NCBI RefSeq assembly: GCF_021010565.1
Contig: NZ_JAJNAY010000001.1
Location: 2,522,001-2,586,000, forward strand
Source: Chryseobacterium turcicum
GTDB lineage: Bacteria > Bacteroidota > Bacteroidia > Flavobacteriales > Weeksellaceae
Direction: 5' to 3'
Length of the DNA: 64,000 nt
Positions 7,169 through 45,132 of the stretch are shown here, piece after piece. The notes below the pieces were generated by a model that was not told the origin of the DNA, ran no database searches, and was given only the letters and a program-made list of their open reading frames with translations. Position numbers and translations under genes: made by a program. Each line of letters begins with the position of its first letter. Within the stretch, counting starts at the first letter, position 1.

Positions 7169-8500
7169 TTATTTCATCTTTAAAATCATATTTTTAACTA
7201 ACTCAAAATCTTTGAGAATCCTAAGATCCTCTTCATTAAGAATTTGAGAAAGTCTTCCCGTGTCTGGTATTGCCACCTCATTCTTATCCAACTTCTGCTT
7301 GAGTTTCAACATTTCGCTATTGATCATTTCCTGAGTTGTCAATGCATACTGCTCAGTTTGAGTAACAGAATAATGCCCCATCATTTCCTTTACAACATTT
7401 ATCGGCACACCGTTTTTCAGAGTAACTGTACTGCCGAATGTTCTTCTAGCTCTATGGGTGTTCAAGTCACCGTCTATCTCGCATAAAATTGCAATCTCCT
7501 TCAAATATTCATTCATCTTCTGATTTGACTTTACAGGCAACACTAAATTATATTCTTTGCAAATAAGATCATCCTTGTACTTTTTCATTATTTCAATAGC
7601 ATTTTTTAATAATGGAATATTTGTGGAAGAGTTAGTTTTTTGCCGTTTCGACATAATCCACATACTGCCATCAATTTCAATTTTGATATCTTTATAAGAA
7701 AGTTGCTTAATATCCATGTAAGCCAAACCTGTGTAGCATTGGAAGACAAAAATATCTCTGATCGCTGTTAAGCGCTTAGTTGAAAATATTTTATTTTCCA
7801 AGACATTCAGTTCATACGTACTCAAAGGTTTTTTATCCAGTTTTGTTTTTTTGGCCTTAAATAATTTGAAAGGATCTTTTAAAATTATTTCCTTTGCTAT
7901 TGCTCGAAGGACAATCTTCTTGAAATTGGCAATATACTTAAGGGTGGTATTATTAGAGCATTTTCTAACAGTTTTTAAAAAAAAATCATATTCTGTAACA
8001 AAAGTATAATCAAGCTCTCTAAATTCAATATCTTCACGTTGATAACGATGCTTAATGAATTCTTCTACATGAGATCTTGCAGTGACGTATCTTTTATAAG
8101 TTCCGATTGCGAATTGTTTGTTGTCAACCAACTGTAGCATTTCATCGTTATGATTTTGAAATTCTTCTAAAACCATAACTCTGGAAACATCTTTTCCTTT
8201 AATATGATCAATTATTTTCTGTGCAGTGGCGAACTGACCACTATTATGCAGCTCAGTCCGCAATTTGGTAATGCTTAAGACAATAGAATCTAAAAAATAG
8301 TTGAGTGATCTCGCATCCTCCTTACTACCACTAGCTCTTTCGGTTTTTTGATTCCAGCGATCCAGTTCCCATCTAAGCATGGTTGAAACCTCTTTTGAGA
8401 TTCCGTCAACGGTAACTCTTAAATAGATTGTTCTATTAGTTACTTTCTTCTTACTTGGCGATTTTAAAAAAAATGTAGTGCCAAAACTTTTTTCTAACAT
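7169..8500 (-). CDS. int: Tyrosine recombinase/integrase of element A (IntDOT-like)
   Basis: 443 residues: an N-terminal arm-binding domain (residues 1-100), a SAM-like core-binding domain (about 110-215) and a catalytic domain (225-400). Visible catalytic residues are Lys288 in the beta hairpin (KRQKT), His349 and Arg352 (HRAR), His376 (MMGHYS) and Tyr385 (TEQYA). The usual first arginine (TGLR) is replaced: residues 257-260 read TGLA, as in many Bacteroidota integrases related to IntDOT. It catalyses integration and excision of element A. It is transcribed away from the attachment core at 10175-10195, from which it is now separated by an IS. Confidence 0.95.
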   Translation of the reverse strand: MLEKSFGTTFFLKSPSKKKVTNRTIYLRVTVDGISKEVSTMLRWELDRWNQKTERASGSKEDARSLNYFLDSIVLSITKLRTELHNSGQFATAQKIIDHIKGKDVSRVMVLEEFQNHNDEMLQLVDNKQFAIGTYKRYVTARSHVEEFIKHRYQREDIEFRELDYTFVTEYDFFLKTVRKCSNNTTLKYIANFKKIVLRAIAKEIILKDPFKLFKAKKTKLDKKPLSTYELNVLENKIFSTKRLTAIRDIFVFQCYTGLAYMDIKQLSYKDIKIEIDGSMWIMSKRQKTNSSTNIPLLKNAIEIMKKYKDDLICKEYNLVLPVKSNQKMNEYLKEIAILCEIDGDLNTHRARRTFGSTVTLKNGVPINVVKEMMGHYSVTQTEQYALTTQEMINSEMLKLKQKLDKNEVAIPDTGRLSQILNEEDLRILKDFELVKNMILKMK

Positions 8501-11605: not shown

Positions 11606-14600
11606 TTATCGTTTTCTAGAAAGTCCCAAATTTTGATCTTGCCTTGGAATATCATTAACTTTTTTTTGATCTGGAATCTCCAAGCTCATATTATTTATTT
11701 TTAAAAACTGAACATTCTCAATAGCTCTTTCTTTTATGTAATCCCAATGTTCATTAATCTTCAGTTGTTGCTTTTTTTCAATAATATATTGAATTGTAAG
11801 ATTATTCTTAACCTCCGGAAGATCTTCAAGTTGCTTATCCAGTTCCGCAATTTTATCTTCGGTAGTTTTGGTTTGAAATTCAATTTGAGTAACATTTATT
11901 CCTTTTTGAGCCAAATTATCAATTACTTCTTGAACTTGAGCTTTATGCAGGGCTATTGTTTTCTGATAAGAAGGGAGCTGATTTTTCCAGTAGTCAGAAT
12001 CTCCATCTCCATTTTTTGAATAACCTTCAATCCTGTTATAAGAATGTTCAGCTTTTGTAACCAATTCTTTCACTTTTATGAAATCTTCATACTTTCTCAA
12101 AACAAATGCACTATCTGCGAGTTGTTTATTTTTCTCACTTTCAATCCTTTTTTTCATCAATTCAATTTCAATATTTGCCCTGGTTTCAGGATTTGTTATG
12201 ATGGAAGTTTTCAATTCCTGTGTACTGATGTCTGAAATATCCAAAACATCTGCGCCTTTTTTCATCGCTTCCAAATATCTTGCCTGCTTAGCTTGCAACT
12301 TTTGAAGCATAAAAACATCAATACTGTCATTGGTCAGCATAAAATTTATTCTTACATTTTCGTTTTTATTTCCTTGTCTGTGTGCTCGTCCTTCCACTTG
12401 TCGCAGGGAAGTAAAATTGTAAGGCAAAGAAAGAAAATACACATCCGTGGTATTTTCCTGAAGATTCATTCCTTCTTGAATCGCCTCACTTCCAATAACA
12501 ACTTTTATTTTTCCCTCATTAAAATCATTTTGGATATTTATTCTTTGATTTTTATTGATTGCCCCTGTAATAACTCCAATTTCTTCCGGTTTGTAACCAA
12601 TTTCAGTAATGAGATATTCTTTCAGCTTTGAAAATTGAGCAACAGCTAATTCAGAATATATAATTTGTCCCGATTCCGGAATGTCCTTTTTATTCTGAGC
12701 GATTAAATCCATCGTTTGTTTCAACTTCGGAGAATTTTCAATAAATTCTTTTAAGGTTGGTTCTTCATCTTCATAATAAGGCGAGAGATAAGGTGAAATG
12801 GCGATGAGACGGGCATTGAGAATATGTGTAAGAATTGCCCCTTTTTCAGTTTCATTGAAATTTTCATTAAGTAGATCGTATTGTTCTTTCGTCAGATCGT
12901 TCTGCTCAATTTTATATTCTTTATTGATCTTACTAGGACGGATCAATTCCGGATTATCTTCTTCTCCTTTGATGTCAATAAATTCAGATAAGAGCTGTTG
13001 AAAGAGAGAATTATTTTTAAATCTTCTAACGTTGGCTTTGAATTTCACATCGCCTTTTGCATCGATCTCCATATCATTATCCGCTTCCATAAAGGTTTCA
13101 AAGAAGGTATTGACATTGAAGTAACCTGATTCCTCCAATCGTTTATTTGCGATCAGTGATAAGATGGAATAATATTCTAATGGTTTATTGGTGAAAGGTG
13201 TTGCAGATAATAAGGTAACATTTCTTCCGTCGTTTTTATCCTGTATATATTGACATGCCATCCAAGTATTAATCCCCAGTTTGGAGGTCTGCTGGTTCTG
13301 ACCTCTAAAATCAGAAGCAAATCGTCGGTCTTCAATCTTTACTTTTCCAACGATATGATTGGCGTTATGAACTTCGTCATAGGTCAAATGGTCAAACCCA
13401 AAATCTTCCCAGTCGTAGATTTTCCCACGTTTCATCTTACCTTCAATCTCTTTTTCTTTCTGCAGCTCAATTTGAATATCCCTTTCTGTATTGGTAATAC
13501 TTTTCAACTCACTTGCAGAGATATAATTGAATTTTGAACATAAGCTTTCGGTGATCTCATTAGAAAATCCAATGTTATTAAAACCTTCATAAGTAACGAT
13601 GGTAATTTCTCCGTCCTTATTATCAAATTTTGAAAGGTCATAGTCTATGCCAAGATTTCCGAGCACATTGACTTTAGCATTGGGAATGATTTCAAAAATC
13701 GTTTCTACCCATTGCTTCAAAATACTGTCATTTGGAACTACGATGAGTGGTCTTCTTATATTTCCTCTCCCCATTGCTTCGTGCATTGATAAGATTCCCG
13801 ACAATGTTTTCCCAAAACCAACTTCGTGCGCCAGCAAACCAACACCTTTTGTGGTTTGTCTTCCAATTCCTGCTTTCTGAACTTCGGTCAATCTAAGTTC
13901 TTTGCCTTTGAAATTTAGATGAATTTTAGAAAACAAAGGAAATTTAGAATAATCAGGGACGTGAATGTTGTTATAATTCCTGTTGAATTCTTTTACAAAT
14001 CGATCTCTTATTTCATCGGACAATTCTTCTCTCAGAAATTTATAAAACAAATCATTGGCAGCTGCTTTTCTTCTTTCTCTGACTAAAGCATTTCTTTCTT
14101 TATCACTTCCCGTGACCGTTTCGTTATCTACGAAACTTTTGACTTCCCAAGCAGAAGAACCTGCAAAAGCTTCACTCGGTAAATTGCCAGCAAAATCCTT
14201 GAAATTTTCTGCAAGATTATAATTTTCTGTTACAAGTTCTGTAGCTCTTGAAGCGGAATTGTATCTTAGCTTCTCAATAGTTCCCAAATCAAATTTGTGG
14301 ACAAATTCGTGGTTAGGACTGATGAAAATCTCATCAAGTGATTTGGGCTTTGGCAAAACATTTTCTAAGAGTGCTTTTTGCTTTTTATAATATTTCTTTT
14401 CAAGACTACCTATTCCCCAATCTTCAATAAAATCTTTTTCTAATTGATTTAACTTTTCATAAATATTTCCTTCGACATAATAAAAATCGTGAACATATTC
14501 TCCATTATAATAATTAACGAATTCAAAATGTCTTGAATAATTTTTTATAATTCCATCATAGGAGGTGGCTTTAAACGCTGCAATTTGTTCTTCAGTAATG

Positions 14601-16756
14601 TCAGAATTATTTTGCAGAGAAGCTTCAACAATTTCATCAGCTTTGGAAAATTGATATTTTAAAATACCTTTCTTGATTTCCGGTTTTGTCTGGAATTTAT
14701 ATTCCGTATTTTTTTTTCCGTTTTGAGATTGGATGATCTTATCCGCTTTCTGATGAATTTCCTCAATGCTTTTTTTATTGAATTTTTTAGGTTCATCAAT
14801 AATTTGGGATTGAAGTTTCATGTATTTATCGATTTCTTTTATAACTGCAGGAGATTTGAATTTGATATCATCTAATTTGGAAAGAACTTCACTAATTTTC
14901 TCTTGAACCTCGGTTACATTCCATTTAGTTGCATTTTTACTCACAAGCTTTACCGAACTTTCGGTTATTGCAGTAATTTCTTTTTGTCTGGATTCTTTAT
15001 TTTCAACCTTAATTTCAGAATCATCTAAAAATAGATCTTCAAAAAGATTTCCGATTCGCTGAGTTTCTTTCCTGTTTTTAAACTGTTCAATTTTAAATAA
15101 GGCTTCCTCTAAGCTTCCGTATACGTATTCTTCCAAACGACCGAAACGGTTGGTTTTTTCTTTGGTTTCACCTAAGATTCTATCCGGATTAATTTCAAAA
15201 TATTCGGAAATGTCGGTAGGTATTTTTTGAGAATCCTTTTTTAAAATGATAATATCCGTTCCGATTTGCGTTTCTGCAAAAGTACCAGTTGGCAGCCTAA
15301 AGCCCTCCAAAATATGGGCGTTTGACAAATTATTTTGTCGGTTTAACCAACCTGATGGAAGCACCATTGCTAAAATTCCGTTTGGCTTTAATGAGTCCAA
15401 AGACCGTTTAGTAAAATAATCTTCGTATTTAGAAATTTTCGGTTCTTCGCCCAAACCTTTATACAATCCACGATGTTCACCATAAGGTGGATTACCAATA
15501 ACCAGATCATATTTTTCAGAAAAGTTTTCAGATTCCTTTTTGTTTCCTTTATCATCGATGAATTCAGTTTCAAAAGAACGAAGGTTAACATTCGCTTCAG
15601 GATGAAGTATTTTTGCAATTTTTGCGGTAGTTTCATTGATTTCAAAACCAGTAATAGCAGTTTTTATTCCTAAATCTTTCGCAGCGTAAAGAAAATTTCC
15701 CGTTCCAACACTTGGTTCTAAAACTGAAATTTCAGTTTTATTTTTAAATTGGTCTTTAATTAAATTGCGAACAGCATTAACGATTTTAGAATGTGTGTAA
15801 TATTCATCTAAAATTCCTCTCCCCTCTTTTGCTGTTCCGCCACTTTGGAATTGGCTGCAAATTTCTTTTAGATCATCAGTAATTTGAAGGTTTTCTTTCA
15901 GATTGATTTTGTGATTGTCAGAAACAAAACAAGCTGAAGAAACCACTTCTGCAACTTGCTCATTGGTCAGTTTTTGACCTTTATATTGTTCTATAAGGTT
16001 TTCTACATCGGAAACTGGTCTTCCTCCTTCTCTTCTATCGGATACGATTCCGCCCAAGGAATGTTCTCTTCCCTCATTTTTTTCATCATCTTGCGGTTGT
16101 GTTCCGTCATCGGATCCTCTTCTTTGTTCTCCGTGGTTTCCCAAATTGTTCCGCTCTGAGCCTGCAGATCCATTTCCAGCATCGTTGCTGCCCATTCTTT
16201 GTCTGCCGGAGTAATCTCCGTTTTGCTCGGATTGGATGTTTTCGCCAAGTTCTCCAAAATTTCTTCCAGAAGACTCGGATCCCAAGTGCTGAGTGTCGGA
16301 AATTTGGTCGGATTGAGTGCTGTCGTTTTCATTGATTAGAATTTTTGGTTCAACTAAATTAAGATTTTTATTTTGGATGTGTAATTTTTTTTGCAGATAC
16401 TCAGTCAGGTTATTATTCTCATTTTCAGAAATTTGATATCGTGGACGAATGTCTTTGATATTTTTGTTTTTAAATTCCGTAAGCATTTTTTTGGTTGCTG
16501 CATCTCCTGTTCTGCCTCCGTTAAGGCAAAGAAATATCTTACCCTCAAAATTCTGATACCTATTTAGAAATTTCTTCGCATTTACAATATAATTTAAAGT
16601 AATAAGGGTTCTGTCATTGCTTTGATTGTTTAATTTCAAAAGCTCCAGAAATGAAAGCGTATCGCTCCTATTTTCAAATAAAATGATTTCATCTTTACTT
16701 CCTTCAAGTATAGAAATATCTTCATTGAAATCGGCAGTATTGAATGATCTATTCAC
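11606..16756 (-). CDS. Giant DNA methylase-helicase fusion with a degenerate Toprim domain
   Basis: 1716 residues. Residues about 20-110 resemble a Toprim domain, but the usual DxD strand reads CLNGGRTGDAA, so catalysis there is doubtful. Residues 150-250 are a Gly/Asn/Ser-rich, charged linker. Residues about 315-480 are an N6-adenine methylase (motif I EPSVGTGNF at 347-355, GNPPY at 421-425). A SNF2-like helicase follows: GFGKT near residue 980, DEVH near 1126, LLSATPF near 1183, and C-terminal motifs SLPYNFTSLRQVEGRAHRQG. Such proteins are a fixed part of Bacteroidota conjugative elements; they may modify or remodel incoming DNA. The upstream gene overlaps its start by 8 bases. Confidence 0.9.
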   Translation of the reverse strand: MNRSFNTADFNEDISILEGSKDEIILFENRSDTLSFLELLKLNNQSNDRTLITLNYIVNAKKFLNRYQNFEGKIFLCLNGGRTGDAATKKMLTEFKNKNIKDIRPRYQISENENNNLTEYLQKKLHIQNKNLNLVEPKILINENDSTQSDQISDTQHLGSESSGRNFGELGENIQSEQNGDYSGRQRMGSNDAGNGSAGSERNNLGNHGEQRRGSDDGTQPQDDEKNEGREHSLGGIVSDRREGGRPVSDVENLIEQYKGQKLTNEQVAEVVSSACFVSDNHKINLKENLQITDDLKEICSQFQSGGTAKEGRGILDEYYTHSKIVNAVRNLIKDQFKNKTEISVLEPSVGTGNFLYAAKDLGIKTAITGFEINETTAKIAKILHPEANVNLRSFETEFIDDKGNKKESENFSEKYDLVIGNPPYGEHRGLYKGLGEEPKISKYEDYFTKRSLDSLKPNGILAMVLPSGWLNRQNNLSNAHILEGFRLPTGTFAETQIGTDIIILKKDSQKIPTDISEYFEINPDRILGETKEKTNRFGRLEEYVYGSLEEALFKIEQFKNRKETQRIGNLFEDLFLDDSEIKVENKESRQKEITAITESSVKLVSKNATKWNVTEVQEKISEVLSKLDDIKFKSPAVIKEIDKYMKLQSQIIDEPKKFNKKSIEEIHQKADKIIQSQNGKKNTEYKFQTKPEIKKGILKYQFSKADEIVEASLQNNSDITEEQIAAFKATSYDGIIKNYSRHFEFVNYYNGEYVHDFYYVEGNIYEKLNQLEKDFIEDWGIGSLEKKYYKKQKALLENVLPKPKSLDEIFISPNHEFVHKFDLGTIEKLRYNSASRATELVTENYNLAENFKDFAGNLPSEAFAGSSAWEVKSFVDNETVTGSDKERNALVRERRKAAANDLFYKFLREELSDEIRDRFVKEFNRNYNNIHVPDYSKFPLFSKIHLNFKGKELRLTEVQKAGIGRQTTKGVGLLAHEVGFGKTLSGILSMHEAMGRGNIRRPLIVVPNDSILKQWVETIFEIIPNAKVNVLGNLGIDYDLSKFDNKDGEITIVTYEGFNNIGFSNEITESLCSKFNYISASELKSITNTERDIQIELQKEKEIEGKMKRGKIYDWEDFGFDHLTYDEVHNANHIVGKVKIEDRRFASDFRGQNQQTSKLGINTWMACQYIQDKNDGRNVTLLSATPFTNKPLEYYSILSLIANKRLEESGYFNVNTFFETFMEADNDMEIDAKGDVKFKANVRRFKNNSLFQQLLSEFIDIKGEEDNPELIRPSKINKEYKIEQNDLTKEQYDLLNENFNETEKGAILTHILNARLIAISPYLSPYYEDEEPTLKEFIENSPKLKQTMDLIAQNKKDIPESGQIIYSELAVAQFSKLKEYLITEIGYKPEEIGVITGAINKNQRINIQNDFNEGKIKVVIGSEAIQEGMNLQENTTDVYFLSLPYNFTSLRQVEGRAHRQGNKNENVRINFMLTNDSIDVFMLQKLQAKQARYLEAMKKGADVLDISDISTQELKTSIITNPETRANIEIELMKKRIESEKNKQLADSAFVLRKYEDFIKVKELVTKAEHSYNRIEGYSKNGDGDSDYWKNQLPSYQKTIALHKAQVQEVIDNLAQKGINVTQIEFQTKTTEDKIAELDKQLEDLPEVKNNLTIQYIIEKKQQLKINEHWDYIKERAIENVQFLKINNMSLEIPDQKKVNDIPRQDQNLGLSRKR

Positions 16757-30745: not shown

Positions 30746-31399
30746 TTAAAAATTCTTTTTATACCGATCCATAATATTTTCAACAATAGCTTTGTCTGTA
30801 TTGATATAGCCTGCCAATGGGTTGATGGAATTCCAAAACCCCAATCGGTTGGCTTTTTCCAGTCTTAATTTGATCGCCAAAAGCCAAAGCTTCAGATTCT
30901 TTACATTACCCGAAATATTGTGTAAAAGCTTGTAGCGATCTCCTGCCGTTGCCAAATTCAGTTCTCCAGAGGTTAATAGATCCGAAACATCTGTCACTAT
31001 CTTTAAACTTTGCTCGTAGGTCTTTTGTGAAGCTTTAACCCCGAAAATCGCGTACTGCGGATGTTGTGATGCCAATTGTACCACCTGTGATGAATAATTG
31101 TAACATTTATTGAGCTCAGAGTAGATTTCCTGTACCTGAATACCATTCTGCAGTGTTCCTGAAACTTCTTTTAAGCCTTTCAGAATTTTATTCTGAATAT
31201 CATTTGCTGCCACCATTTGGGTTCCGACCCAGGTTTGAGCATCTTTTAATTTTGAAGTTTCTTCAATGACCTCATTCTGCTTGGCTTTCAGATTTTCAGA
31301 ATACAGAATCATTGCCGCCGTTACCGTAGGATCGATATAGGTATTTTGTGAATAAAGTAATCCTCCAAATCCTAAGAAAATAATGCTAAACTTTTTCAT
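30746..31399 (-). CDS. TraI-like secreted coiled protein, paralogue 1
   Basis: 217 residues with a signal peptide (IIFLGFGGLLYSQ) and long helices (KAKQNEVIEETSKLKDAQTW, VSGTLQNGIQVQEIYSELNK). Paralogue of 29248-29916 through ASQHPQYAIF and INTDKAIVENIMDRYK. It overlaps the traG 3' end by 14 bases. Position matches traI, downstream of traG, in Bacteroidota operons; a VirB5-like structural role is possible but unproven. Confidence 0.7.
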   Translation of the reverse strand: MKKFSIIFLGFGGLLYSQNTYIDPTVTAAMILYSENLKAKQNEVIEETSKLKDAQTWVGTQMVAANDIQNKILKGLKEVSGTLQNGIQVQEIYSELNKCYNYSSQVVQLASQHPQYAIFGVKASQKTYEQSLKIVTDVSDLLTSGELNLATAGDRYKLLHNISGNVKNLKLWLLAIKLRLEKANRLGFWNSINPLAGYINTDKAIVENIMDRYKKNF

Positions 31400-34300
31400 A
31401 TTGCTGTTTGTTGATTAATACTGAAAAACTGATATTACGGTCTTCTAATTCCTGTGAGATGATTTTGAAAACATTCTTTCCTTTATGCTGTATTTTCATC
31501 ATTCTGTAATAAGAATTGATTTTTTCATCCAAAGGATTCTGATATAAATTCACGAGTGATACCAAGTTTTCCAGACTGTCTCCGAAGATTTTTAAATCAC
31601 CAACTATTCTGCGTAATGCTTCGTCATAATCCCCATATTGATGTACATAATATTCAACAGCTAATTTTTCAGGCTTTTCTGTCGTGTAGGTCAGATACTG
31701 CTCCAATGAAACCTCGTTTCCATAGACTTCCCCTTTCGAACCCCGTTTCAGATAAAATTCCTTGAATCGGCTTCGTCCGAATTTATTATTGAGATTATTG
31801 ATGGTGAAAATCTTGTTCTGCTCGACTTTATTGAGTGAAAGCAATGAAGCGATTTTGTCAAAGTTGTCCTTGAATTTGGTTTGATCAAGCAAAATGAATG
31901 TATCCGAGTTGTTGATGATACTGTCTTTTACGACTGCGTTTCCGATAATGTCATCCAGTTCCTGCGTTACCACCACCGCTTCTCCCCAAAATTTCCTTAC
32001 CGTTTTATACAAATAAAGAATGTAACCTCCCATCAGTTTACTGGCAATCGCTTTCCAGGCTTCTTCAATGATGAGGGCTTTTCTACGGTCTTTTCTGAGT
32101 CTCATTTTCTGAATAAAAGTGTCCATAATAATGAGCGTTACAATCGGAAACAGTTTCGGATTGTCTTTTACATTGTCGATCTCAAACACAATAAATGTTT
32201 CGTCAAACAGCGTATTATCCGTACTTTCATTTAGCGTTGTTCCATACCTTCCACCTTTGTAAAAATCTCTCAGAACAAACAAAAATGTTCGAAGATTAAA
32301 CTCCTTCTCAATGATGTTGTGCTTCTTATTATTCAGATAGATTGGAAGAAATTGGTCGCAATAATCATAAAATCCATTGAAAGAAAGTTCAGTTACAAGC
32401 AGCTTTTCTTCTAGTTCTTTGATTTTTCTAATGATCGCTTTTCTAAAAGATTCATTCCAATCATCAGCTGATCTTGGTTGCTTGATGATATCGCTCGACT
32501 TAATTAAAATCAATTGGGTTTCATTGTATATTTTCCGCCTTTCTTCATCATTCAGCGTGTCATAAGCTTCATAGACTTTATAAAAAATTTCACTTTCATA
32601 TTCCGGATTGTTGATGTTCTTATCAGGATGATAAAATTTCAACAGTTTTCTTCCCGCTTCTTTTATTTCATCGGAACTGGCGTCGAAAGTAATTCCTAAA
32701 ACATCGTAATAGTTTTGCTGCCACTTAACTTCATTCTCATATTCAGAAAATAGATCCTCTTCGTGAATATTGTATTTATTGAGATATAGAATTAATTCTT
32801 CCGAAGTTTTTCCCTCATACCACTCTTGTCCGGAATTAAAATACTGATGATAATACGACATCAACACATTGTCTAATATAGATTTTTGTGCAGATGACAT
32901 TGCAGCATCAGGACCTTGCCAGATCAGGAAAATCAAATTGGTTAAGAATTCAATTTTTTCAATATTAAATTCTTTTTTATCCATTAGAAAAGGATTCATT
33001 GTGATTGGTTTTTCTTCTGTGTATTGGATATATCTTCCTCCTTTATATTTGCAGGTTCCAGAATAGGAATCTCCGGTATCAACAATTACGACATCATAAT
33101 TATAGGTCAGATACTGCTCAATAATATTGTTCATTAAAAAACTCTTGCCTGACCCGCTGGGTCCAAGAACAAACTTATTTCTGTTGTTGATTCTTCCTAT
33201 TTTCATCGGTAAATCCGAAGGATCAACTTTCAGCGGAACACCTTGCCTGTCTGTAAATCTCAGGTAGAAATTGGAATCTTCATTGACGGGGTAACTTTCC
33301 TTAAAAAAAAAACACAAGGCCGCTTCGCTTGTCGTCATAAATAGATCGTATTCTCTGAGTTCGGTTCCATTACCCGGAATGGCCGCCCTCCAAAGTTCCA
33401 ATTGATTGTAGGCATTTTTAGAAACAATGATGCCTTTCGTAAAAAGCTTATTTTCAATCATCGACTGAATGTTCTCCATTTTTTCCAAAGTATCTGCGGA
33501 AAATAAGATTGAAAAATGTGCATTGACAACGAGCTGTCCGTCAATGGCTATGTTATGAAGCAAAGTCTGAATTTCATCTGCTATAATCGCATTGGACGGA
33601 GAATTGTTGGCTGCTCCTTCGTGCTTTTTCTTCTTTTTATCAAGCTCCCTTTGCTGTTGTGCCTGAAGCGGAATCGTAATGATTTGATTGTAAACAATGG
33701 TCTCATAATCTTCCAGTTCATTGATGAAACTAAAATTGTCAACTGCCGTCTCAGCTGCAGCTCCGTTTCCTCCAAGAACAGAATAAGGTTCAATTTCTGA
33801 AGGCAGATCAATGTTTTCTACATCGACGTAAGCAATGTTTTTCACAAACCTGTTTCCTATCTGCAGAAATTCATTGGTACTTTTTATATTATCAAAGGTT
33901 GGAGACTTAGAAAACTGCATCGACAATACGCCTGATATATAGTATTCCAGATCTTTCTCGAATAAAAACTGTGGTTCGCAGTCGCTTTGTTTCAAAAGCA
34001 TAAATACTTTCTGACATTTGTCCCGTAATTCTTTGTAGCTTTTTTCAGAGAATTGGTAATGTTTAGTTTTCTTTTTCAGTTTGTCATCGATGATATCCGT
34101 GAAGAATAGCACGGTTTCAATGGTCTTAAAAAGCCTGCCTTCAAAATGTTCTGAATATTTTTGCTGTAGAAATTGATTGGATTGTTCTGCAGTATATTTC
34201 TTTTTAGAAAAAATGTCAAGCTTCTGGACAATTCTTCCTTCTCCAATAATCGATACCACCTGATTTAAGACTGTATGAAAATGCAGGTACGTATCCGGAT

Positions 34301-34451
34301 CTGCAGAATATTGCTCAACAATGTTTTTTATCCTGATGCCAATGATAGGATTTCCGTACTGCCCAAAAAGAACATCAAAATCCCAATTGAAATCTTTGGC
34401 ATAGTCATACCCGATAAAAGGGATATTAAATGCTTGTTTTTCCTTTTTCAT
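31386..34451 (-). CDS. traG: Conjugation ATPase TraG (VirB4-like) with an inserted DnaJ domain
   Basis: 1021 residues. The N-terminal domain (1-400) is VirB4-like; Walker A GPSGSGKS is at 430-437 and the Walker B region KALIIEEAW at about 791-799, followed by VVVTQELDDIIGNAVVKDSI. VirB4/TraG is the main secretion ATPase at the inner membrane. Unusually, residues about 580-645 are a complete J-domain (YYDVLGITFDASSDEIKEAG, HPD at 608-610, FYKVYEAYDTLNDEERRKIY), placed between the two ATPase motifs. Usual TraG proteins are near 830 residues, so this one is about 190 longer. A J-domain would let it call an Hsp70 such as host DnaK. Confidence 0.92.
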   Translation of the reverse strand: MKKEKQAFNIPFIGYDYAKDFNWDFDVLFGQYGNPIIGIRIKNIVEQYSADPDTYLHFHTVLNQVVSIIGEGRIVQKLDIFSKKKYTAEQSNQFLQQKYSEHFEGRLFKTIETVLFFTDIIDDKLKKKTKHYQFSEKSYKELRDKCQKVFMLLKQSDCEPQFLFEKDLEYYISGVLSMQFSKSPTFDNIKSTNEFLQIGNRFVKNIAYVDVENIDLPSEIEPYSVLGGNGAAAETAVDNFSFINELEDYETIVYNQIITIPLQAQQQRELDKKKKKHEGAANNSPSNAIIADEIQTLLHNIAIDGQLVVNAHFSILFSADTLEKMENIQSMIENKLFTKGIIVSKNAYNQLELWRAAIPGNGTELREYDLFMTTSEAALCFFFKESYPVNEDSNFYLRFTDRQGVPLKVDPSDLPMKIGRINNRNKFVLGPSGSGKSFLMNNIIEQYLTYNYDVVIVDTGDSYSGTCKYKGGRYIQYTEEKPITMNPFLMDKKEFNIEKIEFLTNLIFLIWQGPDAAMSSAQKSILDNVLMSYYHQYFNSGQEWYEGKTSEELILYLNKYNIHEEDLFSEYENEVKWQQNYYDVLGITFDASSDEIKEAGRKLLKFYHPDKNINNPEYESEIFYKVYEAYDTLNDEERRKIYNETQLILIKSSDIIKQPRSADDWNESFRKAIIRKIKELEEKLLVTELSFNGFYDYCDQFLPIYLNNKKHNIIEKEFNLRTFLFVLRDFYKGGRYGTTLNESTDNTLFDETFIVFEIDNVKDNPKLFPIVTLIIMDTFIQKMRLRKDRRKALIIEEAWKAIASKLMGGYILYLYKTVRKFWGEAVVVTQELDDIIGNAVVKDSIINNSDTFILLDQTKFKDNFDKIASLLSLNKVEQNKIFTINNLNNKFGRSRFKEFYLKRGSKGEVYGNEVSLEQYLTYTTEKPEKLAVEYYVHQYGDYDEALRRIVGDLKIFGDSLENLVSLVNLYQNPLDEKINSYYRMMKIQHKGKNVFKIISQELEDRNISFSVLINKQQYEKV

Positions 34452-36611: not shown

Positions 36612-38090
36612 CTACCTTCTCTTCTTCCTTCGTTTTTTGAGTGCATTTTCAGCAGGGTCGTTTGCAGTTCCTGAATTCTTCATCCATTCAAAAAGCATTT
36701 CATTGACCGCTTTATTTAATTCTGCTTCTTCCTTAATATCAGTTAAGGTTTCACTTACATTAAGCGGATTTAGAAATTTCTGATACTCCTTTTCTCCAAT
36801 TAATGATTGAAGTTCTCCGATGTAGTGAAAGCGGGTATGAACTGCATACCTATTCCCGTCTTCGCCTATGGTTATTGTAATATTTTTCTCATCATTTGTA
36901 TTTTTGTAATTCCTGATAAATTCCTTTACTTCAGACTGAACTTTTCGGTAGGTTTCCAAATCTTTTTTTCCTCTGTTTTCAAAAAGCATAAATGCCTTGA
37001 TCTCTGTCCCTGGATATTGTTTTTGTAAAAACTCCAACAATATTTTTTTTGATTCCTGATTCCGAATGTTATAATCTTTTAAGACTTCAAAAAGCTTCTT
37101 GTCCAACGTTTCAGTAGTGAATTCAAACAACTCATTCATTTTTAAAATATCACTTCCTTTATATACTCTATCTGTTTTATGGTCGATCAAAGTATAACCA
37201 AATGGTTTCAAACCTTCTTTTTGATGAAAAACAATATCTATCCCGAATACATCCTTCAGCTTTTTCTGAAGCTCACTTTCAAATTCAATTTTAGCCTTTG
37301 AATGATTTTCTCCTTCAGCTTTTCTTTCTTGTGGGAGCATCGATTCTTTTCGTCTGTTGTCTTCCACCTTAAAAACTTTGTTGGAATACAGTTCCTTATA
37401 TTTTTTTAGGATGGCTTTAATCTGTCCGGCTCTTTTGTCGTTCTTTTGGTTGTCAAATACAATTTGATTTCCTGAAAGTGTCCGTTGTACTACTCCGTTT
37501 TTTAAAATGTTGTAAAAATTTTCAACATTTGTGTTTCTGTTTATTTTGTAACCATTTCTATTCAGTAAAGTTTCCAGTTGATTGATCGAACTTATTCTGT
37601 AATTCAACAGTTTGTCCAAATCTGTGCTTATATTCAGACCGTACAATTTTTCCATTGTACTGCTTAATGCCTTTTGAGCTTTAAGTCTCTCGTAGCTATC
37701 ATTGATTTTCTTTCCGGATTGTTTATCAACCCGCGATGAAACAATATGGACGTGGTTGTTATCTGTGTCCTTATGGAATACCAAAATAAATGGCTGGTTC
37801 CCGTAACCCATTTCGTCCATAAAATTTTCTGCAACTTTTGTCAGTTCTTCTTTGCTGTGCTCCTGAAATTTGGTTGAAATAACGGCGTGGAATTGAGGTT
37901 TTTTTACTTTTTCGTTTTTTGATATTGATTTTAAATAATCCCTGACTTCCTTTTGACTGCTGGCTTCATTAATGAACGAAGGAAAATTTTTCATCAGCAT
38001 CAATTCCCCTGTTCCTTTATTTACTTTTTTATCGTTGTAATTGACTCCCGGAAAGCTGGAACCAGATGGTTTCATTATTTTAACGATCAT
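36612..38090 (-). CDS. mobB: Relaxase/mobilization nuclease MobB
   Basis: 492 residues. The N-terminal relaxase domain (1 to about 180) has the metal-binding histidine motif HKDTDNNHVHIV (H106, H113, H115 visible) and an upstream FHAVISTKFQEHS strand. The C-terminal part is helical and charged and ends in a Lys/Arg tail. It nicks oriT and leads the strand through the coupling protein. It overlaps mobA by 4 bases, so the two are coupled; oriT should lie near or upstream of mobA. Confidence 0.9.
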   Translation of the reverse strand: MIVKIMKPSGSSFPGVNYNDKKVNKGTGELMLMKNFPSFINEASSQKEVRDYLKSISKNEKVKKPQFHAVISTKFQEHSKEELTKVAENFMDEMGYGNQPFILVFHKDTDNNHVHIVSSRVDKQSGKKINDSYERLKAQKALSSTMEKLYGLNISTDLDKLLNYRISSINQLETLLNRNGYKINRNTNVENFYNILKNGVVQRTLSGNQIVFDNQKNDKRAGQIKAILKKYKELYSNKVFKVEDNRRKESMLPQERKAEGENHSKAKIEFESELQKKLKDVFGIDIVFHQKEGLKPFGYTLIDHKTDRVYKGSDILKMNELFEFTTETLDKKLFEVLKDYNIRNQESKKILLEFLQKQYPGTEIKAFMLFENRGKKDLETYRKVQSEVKEFIRNYKNTNDEKNITITIGEDGNRYAVHTRFHYIGELQSLIGEKEYQKFLNPLNVSETLTDIKEEAELNKAVNEMLFEWMKNSGTANDPAENALKKRRKKRR

Positions 38091-39465: not shown

Positions 39466-39792
39466 ATGGGAGCAACGAAGACTGAACATTTTACAAACCG
39501 ACAAAATCAAATTGCAACAATTGCAAAAGCGTTAGGACATCCTGCAAGAATTGCCATCATCGAGTATTTGATGAAAGTTAATGAGTGTATTTGTGGAGAT
39601 ATTGTCAATGAATTACCATTAGCTCAACCAACCGTTTCTCAACACTTAAAAGAATTGAAAAATGCTGGTATTATAAAGGGTAATATTTCTGGAAATGCAA
39701 TTTGCTATTGCATAGACGAAAAAACCATAGAAATTTTAAATACATATTTCTCCCAAATAGTACAAACTGTTTCAAAAACAAGATGCTGTTAA
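39466..39792 (+). CDS. arsR: ArsR-family arsenite-responsive repressor
   Basis: 108 residues: winged helix with recognition region AQPTVSQHLKELKNAGII (about 53-70). Cys41 and Cys43 in NECICGDI form the metalloid site of the E. coli type, and the protein ends in a Cys107-Cys108 pair. Binding of arsenite should release it from the palindromes at 39434-39452 and 39813-39827. First gene of the arsenic operon, followed by a 56-base gap holding the second operator. Confidence 0.9.
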   Translation: MGATKTEHFTNRQNQIATIAKALGHPARIAIIEYLMKVNECICGDIVNELPLAQPTVSQHLKELKNAGIIKGNISGNAICYCIDEKTIEILNTYFSQIVQTVSKTRCC

Positions 39793-39812
39793 GCATTTTT
39801 TTAACAAAGTAT

Positions 39813-39827
39813 ATCGCAATATTGCAT
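39813..39827. promoter_or_regulatory. Second ArsR operator candidate between arsR and the DUF6428 gene
   Basis: ATCGCAATATTGCAT holds the perfect palindrome GCAATATTGC (39816-39825) and shares 13 of 14 bases with part of the arsR-proximal site. Suggests a separately repressed promoter for the resistance genes. Confidence 0.6.
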
Positions 39828-39848
39828 TTTAACTATAAAGATTTAATT

Positions 39849-40319
39849 ATGAAATTATCAGAAGTAAAACAAATTTTACCAACATTGGAAAATGTAGAAT
39901 TCCAATTAGAAAATGGAACTTTTGTTCCGGAACATTTTCACGTTACAGAGATAGGAATGATTACCAAAAACTTTATTGATTGTGGTGGTGTTATCCGTTC
40001 TGAGAAAGTAGTGAATTTTCAATTGTGGAATGCTGACGATTTTGAACATCGTTTGAAGCCAAACAAATTACTCAACATAATCACACTTTCCGAAGATAAA
40101 CTAGGAATTGAAGATTTTGATATTGAGGTTGAATATCAAAGTGAAACTATCGGAAAATACGATTTAGAATTTAATGGGAAAACATTTGTGTTAAAAAGCA
40201 AAACCACAGCTTGTTTAGCACAAGAAGCTTGCGGAATTCCATCAGAAAAACAAAAGAAGAATTTAATTGAACTGGTTAGCAACCAAAACAATTACACCCA
40301 AAATTCAGGATGTTGCTAA
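39849..40319 (+). CDS. DUF6428 family protein of the arsenic operon
   Basis: 156 residues from the ATG at 39849 (MKLSEVKQILPTLENVEFQL); the longer open frame from 39702 overlaps arsR and is not credible. Beta-rich and cytosolic, with HFHVTEIGMITKNFIDCGG and CLAQEACGIPSEKQK segments and a C-terminal NSGCC. DUF6428 proteins are found next to arsR in Bacteroidota. The exposed cysteine pair could bind arsenite, parallel to the CC end of ArsR here; function unknown. Confidence 0.8.
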   Translation: MKLSEVKQILPTLENVEFQLENGTFVPEHFHVTEIGMITKNFIDCGGVIRSEKVVNFQLWNADDFEHRLKPNKLLNIITLSEDKLGIEDFDIEVEYQSETIGKYDLEFNGKTFVLKSKTTACLAQEACGIPSEKQKKNLIELVSNQNNYTQNSGCC

Positions 40320-40329
40320 TCAAATTTCT

Positions 40330-40821
40330 ATGGAAATAAAATTGATTACCAAGGATAATTTTGCGGAGTTAATAGAAATCTATCGTCAAGGACTAGCAAC
40401 GAATATCGCAACTTTTCAAAATGATTCGCCCATATGGAAAGATTGGGATAAGGGACACCTTGATTTTTGTAGAATTTGTATATATGAAAATAGCAAGATG
40501 CTTGGTTGGACTGCGCTATCTCCAGTTTCAAGCAGATGCGTTTATTCAGGTGTAGCTGAAGTAAGTGTTTATGTCGCAACAGATTCAAGAGGAAAAGGTA
40601 TAGGCAAACTGCTACTGAATGAATTGATTAAGCAGAGTGAATCAAATGGAATATGGACGTTGCAATGCGGAATATTTTCAGAAAACCAAAGTAGCATAAA
40701 ATTACACGAGAAATGCGGTTTTAGAATTGTTGGCTACAGGGAAAAAATTGGAAAGAAAAATGGCGTTTGGAAAGACAATGTATTGATGGAGTACAGAAGT
40801 AAAATTGTCGGAATAGATTAA
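40330..40821 (+). CDS. arsN: GNAT acetyltransferase, ArsN/phosphinothricin-acetyltransferase-like
   Basis: 163 residues from the ATG at 40330; an in-frame ATG at 40267 overlaps the previous gene. It has IYRQGLATNIATFQNDSP near the N-terminus, typical of phosphinothricin acetyltransferases, the acetyl-CoA loop DSRGKGIGKLLL, and IFSENQSSIKLHEKCGF with IVGYREKIGKKNGVWKD. In ars operons such enzymes (ArsN1) N-acetylate the organoarsenical arsinothricin. Substrate by analogy only. Confidence 0.82.
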   Translation: MEIKLITKDNFAELIEIYRQGLATNIATFQNDSPIWKDWDKGHLDFCRICIYENSKMLGWTALSPVSSRCVYSGVAEVSVYVATDSRGKGIGKLLLNELIKQSESNGIWTLQCGIFSENQSSIKLHEKCGFRIVGYREKIGKKNGVWKDNVLMEYRSKIVGID

Positions 40822-40845
40822 AATAAAATTATAAAATCAATAAAA

Positions 40846-41619
40846 ATGAAAATTGCATTATTCAGCGACATTCACGCTAATCTCCCTGCATTAGAAGCAT
40901 TCTTTGCAGATGTCGAGAAAAGAAATCCAGATAGCATCTATTGTTTGGGCGATTTAGTTGGCTACAACATTTGGCCAAACGAAGTTGTAAATGAAATTCG
41001 TAAAAGGAAAATACCAACTATTGCTGGTAACTACGATTTTGGCATTGGAAGAATGAGTAACGAATGTGGTTGTGCATACAAAACTGATAGCGAAAAAGAT
41101 AATGGAAATATTTCTATTTCCTTTACCAATTACTTGATGAAAGACGATGAACGAGCTTACTTGCGTACACTTCCAGCTCACATCAAAGTCGAATTTCAGC
41201 TGAATGAAGACAAATTAAATCTGCTCTTGGTACACGGTAGCCCACGAAAAATAAATGAATATCTTTTTGAAGACCGTGAAGAAAAAAGTATGATTCGAAT
41301 TATGGAGCAAGCCGATGCTGACATTATGTGCTTCGGACATACACACAAACCTTATCACAGAGTTTTGAATTCTGGTAGTGGGGGACAAAATCATTTTCGT
41401 CACGCAGTAAATATCGGTTCGGTAGGAAAACCAAAAGACAATGATATTAGAGGTGGTTATGTGATGTTGACAATCAATGAAAACAGCTCAATACTAGATA
41501 AAGAGAGTATTGGCATAGAGTTTATTCGCTTTGATTATGATTTTGAAAAAGCTGCAAAGGCTGTAGAAGAAAGTCCTCTTCCAAACGAGTATGCAGAAAA
41601 TCTAAGACGTGGCTATTAA
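40846..41619 (+). CDS. Metallophosphoesterase (YfcE/MJ0936-like) of the arsenic operon
   Basis: 257 residues with all two-metal phosphoesterase motifs: D8-x-H10 (FSDIHAN), G35-D36 (CLGDLVGYN), G61-N62-Y-D (AGNYD), a VHGSPR histidine and CFGHTHKPYH. A CGC group (NECGCAYKT, near residues 73-76) is unusual. Probably a soluble phosphodiesterase or phosphatase. Nothing in the sequence names the substrate; the operon suggests an arsenic-linked one, perhaps a phosphate/arsenate ester or a signal nucleotide (inference). Confidence 0.85.
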   Translation: MKIALFSDIHANLPALEAFFADVEKRNPDSIYCLGDLVGYNIWPNEVVNEIRKRKIPTIAGNYDFGIGRMSNECGCAYKTDSEKDNGNISISFTNYLMKDDERAYLRTLPAHIKVEFQLNEDKLNLLLVHGSPRKINEYLFEDREEKSMIRIMEQADADIMCFGHTHKPYHRVLNSGSGGQNHFRHAVNIGSVGKPKDNDIRGGYVMLTINENSSILDKESIGIEFIRFDYDFEKAAKAVEESPLPNEYAENLRRGY

Positions 41620-41637
41620 TCTTTAAAATCTAAAAAA

Positions 41638-42015
41638 ATGGAACTTCCAAACGATTTATATTACTCTAAAGAACATACTTGGGTTCGTATTGACAACGAG
41701 ACTGCAACTATCGGTATTACAGAATTTGCTCAGAAGGAGTTGGGCGAAATCGTATATGTTGACTTACCGAATACTAATCATAGTTTCAAACAAGACGAGG
41801 TATTTGGTTCTGTAGAAGCTATTAAAACTGTCAGTGATTTGTTTATGCCTCTATCAGGAGAAGTAACTGAAATTAATGAGCAACTTTTAAGAGAACCAAC
41901 ACTGGTAAACTCTAATCCCTTCGATAAGGGTTGGATGATAAAAATTGAAATTGAGGACTTAAAAGAAACTGAAAATTTATTAACAGCGGAACAATACGCT
42001 CAACTAAACAATTAG
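41638..42015 (+). CDS. gcvH: GcvH-like lipoyl-carrier protein inside the arsenic operon
   Basis: 125 residues, full length for glycine cleavage H protein. Conserved features: YYSKEHTWVRI, IGITEFAQKELGEIVYVDLP, and the lipoylation motif GSVEAIKTVSDLFMPLSGEV with Lys63 as the expected lipoyl-lysine. No gcvT or gcvP is nearby; it starts 18 bases after the phosphoesterase stop and ends 3 bases before the ACR3 gene, so it belongs to the arsenic operon. A dihydrolipoyl group binds trivalent arsenic tightly, so a role as arsenite carrier, buffer or sensor is plausible but inferred. Confidence 0.9.
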   Translation: MELPNDLYYSKEHTWVRIDNETATIGITEFAQKELGEIVYVDLPNTNHSFKQDEVFGSVEAIKTVSDLFMPLSGEVTEINEQLLREPTLVNSNPFDKGWMIKIEIEDLKETENLLTAEQYAQLNN

Positions 42016-42018
42016 AGA

Positions 42019-43050
42019 ATGCAACCAAAATTAAAATTCCTCGACCGCTTTCTTACACTTTGGATTTTTTTAGCAATGCTTTCAGGTGTTGGTTTAGGAT
42101 ATTTCTTTCCTAATATATCTAACATTACAAACTCTCTTTCTGTAGGAACGACTAATATTCCCTTAGCAATAGGATTAATTTTGATGATGTACCCGCCTTT
42201 GGCAAAAGTAGATTATTCTCTATTACCAATGGCTTTTAAAGATAAAAAAGTGATGTCGGTATCTTTACTTCTAAATTGGATTATCAGTCCAGTTTTAATG
42301 TTCGTATTGGCAATTATTTTTCTTAGTGATGAGCCGGACTATATGATTGGCTTAATCTTGATTGGTTTGGCTAGATGCATTGCTATGGTAATTGTTTGGA
42401 ATGATTTAGCAAAAGGTAATAGAGAGTATGCAGCTCTGCTAATAGCATTAAACAGTATCTTCCAATTAGTTTTTTACAGTTTTTATGTTTGGCTTTTCAT
42501 TAATATATTACCTCAAAAACTTGGACTAGGAACCTTTAACGTTGTTGTACCGATGAAAGACGTTGCCGAAAGTGTTTTCATTTATTTAGGAATTCCATTT
42601 ATTGCAGGATTTTTGAGCCGATATTTTTTGATTAAATTAAAAGGACAAGACTGGTTCAACAGAAAATTTATTCCTGCTATTTCTCCAATGACATTGTATG
42701 CTTTACTTTTTACAATAGTATTAATGTTCAGTTTGAAAGGAGATAAAATTTTAGAATTGCCAATGGACGTTGTGAAAGTAGCCATCCCATTAATAATTTA
42801 CTTCGTCCTTACATTCTTTATCAGCTTTTTCATAAGTAAAGCATTGAAAGTTCCTTACGACAAAAATGCATCTATCGCCTTTACGGCAATAGGAAATAAT
42901 TTTGAATTGGCTATTGCTGTTGCCATAGCGGTTTTTGGAATTCATTCATCACAGGCATTTGTAGGAGTTATTGGACCTTTAGTAGAAGTGCCTATTTTAA
43001 TTCTATTGGTTAGGGTTAGTTTATGGTTGAAACAGAAATATTACAAATAA
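42019..43050 (+). CDS. acr3: ACR3-type arsenite efflux permease
   Basis: 343 residues with about ten membrane helices. The hallmark [16 protein letters not shown] carries the conserved cysteine of ACR3 transporters; [18 protein letters not shown] and [21 protein letters not shown] are also family signatures. It expels arsenite across the inner membrane using the proton gradient. Last gene of the operon. No ArsC arsenate reductase is encoded in this cluster. Confidence 0.95.
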
Positions 43051-44484: not shown

Positions 44485-45132
44485 ATGTATTACAATACCG
44501 TAAATGATTTACTGAAAAGCAGCTTGCAGATCCTTATGGCTTCAAAGGTTTTTGATGATTTCAGGCTTGTAGGTGGGACATCTTTAAGTCTTCAGCTAGG
44601 ACACCGTATATCAATAGACATCGATCTATTTAGTGACGTACCCTACGGAAGCATTAATTTTACTGAAATTGATCTTTTTCTTAAATCTGCGTTTACCTAT
44701 GTTGATGGTTTTTCAGACCTAGATCCTGCTATGGGTAAATCCTACCTTATTGGAACCGATAAGCAGAACTCAGTAAAACTTGACTTATACTATACAGACA
44801 GTTACATACGACCTGCTATACTAGCCGAAGAAATAAGATTAGCAACGGTAGACGAGATCATTGCGATGAAGGTAGATGTAGTCCAAAGAGGCGGTCGTAA
44901 AAAAGATTTTTGGGATCTTCACGAATGTCTTCCCGAATATGGTATCGGAAAAATGCTGGAGCTTCACGAGGAGCGCTATCCATATGATCACGACAAGGAA
45001 TTAATTCTGAAAAAATTTATTGACTTTATTATCGCAGATGATGATTTTGACCCTATCTGCCTGCACGGCAAATATTGGGAATTTATAAAAGAGGATATTG
45101 AAGAGGCGGTCAGCAAATATCAGAATTTGTAA
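44485..45132 (+). CDS. AbiEii/AbiGii-type nucleotidyltransferase toxin
   Basis: 215 residues with the nucleotidyltransferase motif GGTSLSLQLGHRISIDIDLF (GG/TS plus DxD) and the third acidic strand KLDLYYTD, then LATVDEIIAMKVDVVQRGGRKKDFWDLHE, characteristic of the AbiEii/AbiGii family. Such toxins modify tRNA 3' ends and cause growth arrest or abortive infection. Paired with the XRE gene upstream, giving a type IV-like addiction or anti-phage module. Confidence 0.88.
   Translation: MYYNTVNDLLKSSLQILMASKVFDDFRLVGGTSLSLQLGHRISIDIDLFSDVPYGSINFTEIDLFLKSAFTYVDGFSDLDPAMGKSYLIGTDKQNSVKLDLYYTDSYIRPAILAEEIRLATVDEIIAMKVDVVQRGGRKKDFWDLHECLPEYGIGKMLELHEERYPYDHDKELILKKFIDFIIADDDFDPICLHGKYWEFIKEDIEEAVSKYQNL

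Follow-up and report, generated by a model that had tools for sequence, protein, structure and literature searches.

An altered GcvH beside a predicted Car1-type enzyme in a mobile operon points to a possible role of a lipoyl arm in arsenate detoxification

Arsenite is well known for poisoning lipoyl groups. The locus described in this work raises the question of why an arsenic operon carries a gene for GcvH, a lipoyl carrier protein. The locus was identified in a window of 64,000 nucleotides from Chryseobacterium turcicum (assembly GCF_021010565.1, contig NZ_JAJNAY010000001.1, positions 2,522,001 to 2,586,000), and the window is the whole stretch of DNA that was analysed. The arsR, DUF6428, ArsN-like GNAT, metallophosphoesterase, GcvH, and ACR3 genes are arranged head to tail at 39466-43050. 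A Bacteroidota ars operon is marked by a co-directional string that includes both arsR and ACR3, and the window string has the two genes. The operon is embedded among conjugative-element genes. The features are as follows.

7169-8500: integrase-like gene of the conjugative element
between 21742 and 34451: coupling-protein-like gene, TraM, and TraG P-loop genes of the conjugative element
36612-38090: relaxase of the conjugative element
39466..39792, + strand: arsR, ArsR/SmtB repressor, 108 aa (PF01022 47.7 bits, NF033788 69.7 bits)
39849..40319, + strand: DUF6428 protein, 156 aa, cysteine-rich (PF20001 209.5 bits)
40330..40821, + strand: ArsN-like GNAT acetyltransferase, 163 aa (closest NCBIfam model NF040503 ArsN1 family A, 128.6 bits, under the cut-off of 170)
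40846..41619, + strand: predicted Car1-type arsenate reductase of metallophosphoesterase fold, 257 aa (PF12850 74.4 bits, PF00149 60.8 bits)
41065..41073, + strand: Cys74-Gly-Cys76 motif of the Car1-type enzyme, conserved among Car1-type rows
41638..42015, + strand: ars-type GcvH, lipoyl carrier protein, 125 aa (PF01597 144.4 bits, TIGR00527 152.6 bits)
41677..41679, + strand: Thr14 codon of GcvH (Glu in housekeeping GcvH)
41824..41826, + strand: Lys63 codon, lipoyl attachment site of GcvH
42019..43050, + strand: acr3, arsenite efflux transporter, 343 aa (TIGR00832 440.5 bits, cut-off 282.8)

The gene content and coordinates given for this operon in the initial annotation were confirmed from the sequence and profile matches, as were the spacers that flank GcvH (18 bases on the metallophosphoesterase side and 3 bases on the ACR3 side). 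That annotation did not include the DUF6428 gene, the Car1-type identity of the phosphoesterase, or another ars operon that the genome has outside this locus. This second operon consists of arsR, DUF6428, ArsC-like, and ACR3 genes. Its ArsC-like gene sits where the window operon has GNAT, Car1, and GcvH, which we counted in favour of a joint role of Car1 and GcvH.

The GcvH had been described as full-length, with an intact lipoyl-lysine and no gcvT or gcvP nearby. Its score is above the TIGR00527 cut-off and its Lys63 is intact. No gcvT was identified within the window by tblastn with the GcvT of the same genome, and GcvP was not found among the four window ORFs longer than 800 aa, so that the gcvT/gcvP linkage of a glycine cleavage H protein is not exhibited here. 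Such linkage, as in E. coli, is usual and not universal. The genome has three GcvHs, namely the ars copy of the window, one that adjoins gcvT about 100 kb away, and one that is free of gcvT in the 3.4 kb seen. The ars GcvH is 55% and 52% identical to the two others.

The ars GcvHs form a single clade with support of 100/96 in a tree of 70 rows. The tree consists of 37 ars-type rows (the window, the loci described below, and 7 hand-picked database proteins) and one Glu14 exception, set against 32 housekeeping copies. The 30 sampled housekeeping GcvHs are best-scoring copies, and some families are under-represented among them. Lys63 is kept in 48/48 ars copies, of which 47 come from the loci and one is the window copy. 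The residues around Lys63 match those of the housekeeping copies, and the ars GcvH should therefore still be a substrate of the usual lipoylation enzymes.

The two groups are separated at position 14. The ars copies exhibit Thr (48/48), whereas the housekeeping copies exhibit Glu (32/32), and the separation is complete after thinning at 90% identity (Thr in 39/39 against Glu in 27/27). The database proteins nearest to the ars GcvH also exhibit Thr14 (119/120). The sole Glu14 row inside the ars clade, P0112, was counted as an exception and looks like an N-terminal chimera. In the E. coli H protein, the aminomethyl nitrogen is held by charged hydrogen bonds from Glu-12 and Glu-14 (PMC7733448). 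The window GcvH retains Glu12 and has lost Glu14, and thus does not have the Glu12/Glu14 pair of a glycine cleavage H protein. Among 13 other positions flagged between the two groups, position 37 is the only one with a complete replacement, in that all thinned ars rows have Glu in place of Asp. Positions 75, 84, 88, and 104 exhibit mostly charge changes, and the window copy keeps Glu75.

The ars GcvH therefore shares with the glycine cleavage H protein its fold family, its length, and the lipoyl lysine with its surroundings. It differs in Thr14, in Glu37, in 12 further positions that mostly differ, and in its place in an arsenic operon with no adjoining gcvT. Based on the single clade, the kept Lys63, and the replacement of the aminomethyl-holding Glu14 by Thr, the ars GcvH looks like a repurposed lipoyl carrier. 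A spare GcvH for glycine cleavage was rejected as the leading idea because Glu14 is lost in every ars copy. Other dedicated lipoyl carriers are LbpA of the sHdr pathway and GcvH-L of SirTM operons, which are likewise GcvH-like proteins diverted from glycine cleavage. They differ from the ars GcvH in their operons and their cargo. The median dN/dS is ~0.13 for GcvH, 0.02-0.03 for Car1 (rough, with dS >1, near saturation), and 0.03-0.06 for ACR3. The ars GcvH thus evolves faster than its neighbours, yet it is under purifying selection.

The enzyme encoded upstream of GcvH exhibits a calcineurin-like metallophosphoesterase domain, as indicated by the two Pfam matches listed above. Its metal ligands (D8, H10, D36, N62, H130, H165, and H167) show no variation in any row that covers them. 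Over 89 ORF rows of >=75% identity from 88 loci, one of which is in two pieces, Cys74 is present in 87/88 covering rows (Phe in L086) and Cys76 in 88/88. The 12 weaker metallophosphoesterase paralogues have neither cysteine. Passages of PMC12124457 (2025) report that Car1 of Rufibacter tibetensis is an As(V) reductase for which Cys74 and Cys76 are essential. The same passages describe a metallophosphoesterase of ars operons, orf1, that is ~40% identical to Car1 and keeps both cysteines. The link of the window enzyme to Car1 is indirect and runs through Paraclostridium, since homologues of that genus are ~39% identical to the window enzyme and orf1 of that genus, in those passages, is ~40% identical to Car1. 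By its fold, context, and Cys74/Cys76, the window phosphoesterase is predicted to be a Car1 homologue. Both enzymes share the metallophosphoesterase fold, the two cysteines, and an origin in Bacteroidota. They differ in that a lipoyl carrier gene follows the enzyme in the window.

The phosphoesterase had been proposed to act on an arsenic-linked or signal nucleotide. That proposal found no support, as the two Car1 cysteines are present, and the signal-nucleotide role was rejected because the CxC motif is conserved here, whereas the 12 paralogues lack it. The Cys-Gly-Cys motif is retained by distant homologues encoded on plasmids of Paraclostridium and Rubrobacter. It is present in 6/7 enzymes from seven plasmid regions, and GcvH was not found in the gene tables of these regions, which are incomplete. 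A second metallophosphoesterase follows Car1 in L107, L110, L111, L120, L123, L124, L125, L195, L202, and L204. It is of the MrMe2 type by gene order, and it is without CxC in those checked (all except L202 and L204). The ars operons of Mucilaginibacter gossypii P3 (PMC10652896) share arsR, MrArsU, ArsN, ACR3, and the metallophosphoesterases MrMe1 and MrMe2 with the loci in this work. They differ in that no GcvH is named, and MrMe1 and MrMe2 are called uncharacterised there.

The pairing of Car1 and GcvH is not unique to one strain, and the same neighbourhood is found in many other Bacteroidota loci. A set of 92 loci was collected through the phosphoesterase, which consists of 12 stretches around 12 of 30 places (59 genomes) and, from GTDB genomes, the best 80 of 339. 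This set contains at least two places in duplicate. The 88 loci with a Car1-type gene consist of 47 with intact GcvH (29 distinct proteins), 8 with broken GcvH, and 33 with none. Four of the 41 Car1 loci without intact GcvH end within 1.5 kb downstream of Car1. When counted by distinct Car1 and state, 65 rows consist of 28 with GcvH, 1 with GcvH and ArsC, 7 with broken GcvH, 10 with ArsC, and 19 with neither; this count omits two Car1 loci, as well as paralogues of the L042 type and L076, which is split. Broken or remnant gcvH beside intact Car1 was identified in L046, L052, L055, L057, L058, L089, L090, and L091.

Since the sample seeded with the phosphoesterase is biased, the window GcvH also served as a query, with an E threshold of 1e-44 that admits close relatives only. 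In the family (296 genomes), 30 places of ars GcvH were identified in 27 genomes, the window included. All 30 places lie between Car1 and ACR3. Two of them carry an internal stop, and position 14 is Thr in 29 and unreadable in one. In the phylum (395 genomes), three GcvH places were identified at the same threshold. The window and G217 are in Car1-ACR3 operons, and the remaining place holds a housekeeping GcvH, which has Glu14. A survey of 198 phylum genomes identified 124 with ACR3 and, among the GcvH matches listed, 197 with GcvH and 10 with more than one. A Car1-like gene (>=70% identity) is present in 6/198, with GcvH beside it in 2 and not in 4; GcvH near some other ACR3 is possible, as the GcvH places are those among the matches listed. 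The Car1-GcvH-ACR3 arrangement is real and recurrent, and the Car1-GcvH module is mobile, rare in the phylum, and more frequent in the home family. The orphan lipoyl carrier tied to arsenic genes, as first proposed, is thus supported by the conserved lipoyl lysine and by a neighbourhood that recurs across Bacteroidota.

Gene order was considered as a guide to the partner of GcvH. Intact GcvH is directly after Car1 in 43/47 loci, with a gap of 16-18 bases in 37 of these, and directly before ACR3 in 42/47. GcvH touches Car1 only in L105, L115, and L116, ACR3 only in L095 and L119, and neither in L114 and L101, the latter being a locus without ACR3. The argument that gene order favours Car1 over ACR3 was dropped (43 against 42 of 47). 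Car1 is preferred as the partner mainly on chemical grounds, because a CxC disulfide needs a dithiol reductant.

The distribution of ArsC-like genes was also compared. An ArsC-like gene is present in the Car1 string of 1/47 loci with GcvH versus 15/42 without (p 3.6e-5; p 0.017 after removal of duplicates), where L042, a paralogue locus, and L123, whose ArsC is short, are counted among the 42 strings. Most ArsC-like genes fall into a main cluster that is only distantly related to thioredoxin-type ArsC and scores below the NCBIfam cut-offs. The near-exclusion was given no weight because it is not independent of descent, and the tree offers too few pairs for an independent-pairs test. The idea that GcvH stands in for ArsC was set aside, as the anti-association, strong in the raw counts, may not survive correction for descent.

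These findings lead to a tentative answer, to which we assign a rough probability of 0.42. The operon would be a mobile arsenate/arsenite cassette in which GcvH is a repurposed carrier that serves Car1. The Car1-type enzyme, with its metallophosphoesterase fold and Cys74/Cys76, would reduce arsenate, and each round would leave a Cys74-Cys76 disulfide on the enzyme. We infer that a lipoylated GcvH interacts with Car1, and that electrons flow from its dihydrolipoyl arm to this disulfide. The arm would be recharged by the lipoamide dehydrogenase of the cell with NADH, and two lipoamide dehydrogenases over the cut-off are present in the genome. The dithiol may briefly hold newly formed arsenite, which ACR3 would pump out. 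Lipoyl proteins with Lpd drive Ohr, and DlaT with Lpd drives mycobacterial AhpC/AhpD, so the proposed chemistry has precedent. In those systems a lipoyl protein and Lpd likewise reduce a detoxifying cysteine enzyme, and the parts are what is seen here (the carrier, the CxC enzyme, and two Lpd). The systems differ in that they act on peroxides rather than arsenate and have no dedicated GcvH.

Several findings argue against the lipoyl arm as the reductant of Car1. GcvH is absent or broken in 41/88 Car1 loci (33 and 8), it is missing from the gene tables of the seven plasmid regions, it evolves faster than its neighbours (dN/dS 0.13 against 0.02-0.06), and gene order hardly separates Car1 from ACR3 as its partner. 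A dithiol that is recharged amid arsenite also risks being trapped. The Car1 of R. tibetensis is reportedly recycled by thioredoxin in vitro, a donor that differs from the one proposed here. If thioredoxin suffices for that enzyme, Car1 may be able to work without a lipoyl donor. For P. dentum IIB4 and T. petrolearius IIB7, a thioredoxin-family gene, orf2, is listed in the ars operons in a figure legend of PMC12124457, which fits thioredoxin as the donor elsewhere.

The explanation that ranks second is that of the initial annotation, in which GcvH is an arsenite carrier or buffer. Its dihydrolipoyl arm would chelate arsenite, here the product of Car1, and hand it to ACR3. Dithiols are tight binders of As(III), which is established chemistry, and the loss of Glu14 fits a cargo that is not an amine. 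The position of ACR3 directly downstream of GcvH in 42/47 loci, the two loci in which GcvH touches ACR3 and not Car1, and the 30/30 places between Car1 and ACR3 are also consistent with it. We consider this explanation possible but less probable, since ACR3 is on the opposite side of Car1 in L105, L114, L115, and L116, while L101 has GcvH and Car1 without ACR3. Tight chelation by the lipoyl arm would block its recharging too.

DUF6428 is an alternative candidate for such a carrier. It lies between arsR and GNAT in the window operon, is present in 72/88 Car1 loci, and exhibits invariant Cys45, 122, 128, 155, and 156 across 31 aligned sequences. A fold comparison of its structure model (pLDDT 79.9, pTM 0.69) with the PDB gave nothing at E of 0.001 or below, and a search with its sequence returned no convincing match. 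By gene order, DUF6428 may be the MrArsU of Mucilaginibacter P3 (PMC10652896). Its cysteines make it a candidate arsenic-binding protein.

A further explanation is that the extra lipoyl-GcvH is a backup or decoy, which sustains glycine cleavage or lipoate supply, or soaks up arsenite, while lipoyl groups are poisoned. Lipoyl enzymes are classic arsenite targets, and the Lys63 region is unchanged. Passages of PMC10138600 report that a GcvH gene, gcvH3, is induced by arsenite in Pseudomonas pseudoalcaligenes. This explanation is improbable because Glu14, one of the two aminomethyl-holding residues, is lost in 48/48 ars copies, the ars GcvHs are one clade and not repeated copies of the host gcvH, and a decoy has no need to stay by Car1 and ACR3 in 30/30 places. 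Least probable is that GcvH is a passenger caught up in a successful mobile operon to which it contributes little. Its breakage or absence in 8 and 33 of 88 Car1 loci, the internal stop in 2/30 places, and its fast change relative to its neighbours are in favour of this. Against it, the dN/dS is ~0.13, Lys63 is kept in all 48 intact copies, residues are clade-specific, and the gene is maintained in several families and in rearranged operons.

The reading of GcvH as the reductant of Car1 would imply a third route of power for arsenate reductases, besides thioredoxin and glutathione/glutaredoxin. In this route, electrons would pass from NADH through lipoamide dehydrogenase and a dedicated lipoylated GcvH, in which part of the glycine-cleavage anchor is gone, to the CxC disulfide of Car1, and the carrier may pass arsenite on. 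We regard this wider claim as possible but short of probable. The open-licence literature searched yielded no lipoyl carrier dedicated to an arsenate reductase, and neither the combination of lipoyl, arsenite, and GcvH nor that of arsenic, GcvH, and metallophosphoesterase turned up there, which is no proof that none has been published. If the reading is true, an arsenic operon with its own altered lipoyl protein turns a lipoyl liability into a tool, a lipoyl-coupled branch is added to arsenate reduction, and GcvH has evolved into a dithiol carrier outside glycine cleavage.

Other observations concern the mobile setting of these operons. The loci L060-L072, from records of Chryseobacterium, Pedobacter, Sphingobacterium, and Flavobacterium, are closely similar ars islands that also hold SulP, DoxX, and chromate-transporter genes, and their similarity across genera is a sign of recent transfer. 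In the window, the TraG-type ATPase at 31386-34451 has an additional DnaJ domain (PF00226). The 1716-aa protein encoded at 11606-16756 exhibits helicase and Eco57I-type methylase domains and is likely the product of a restriction or defence gene. An AbiEii-type nucleotidyltransferase (PF08843) is encoded at 44485-45132, downstream of the ars operon, and is likely part of a toxin-antitoxin pair.
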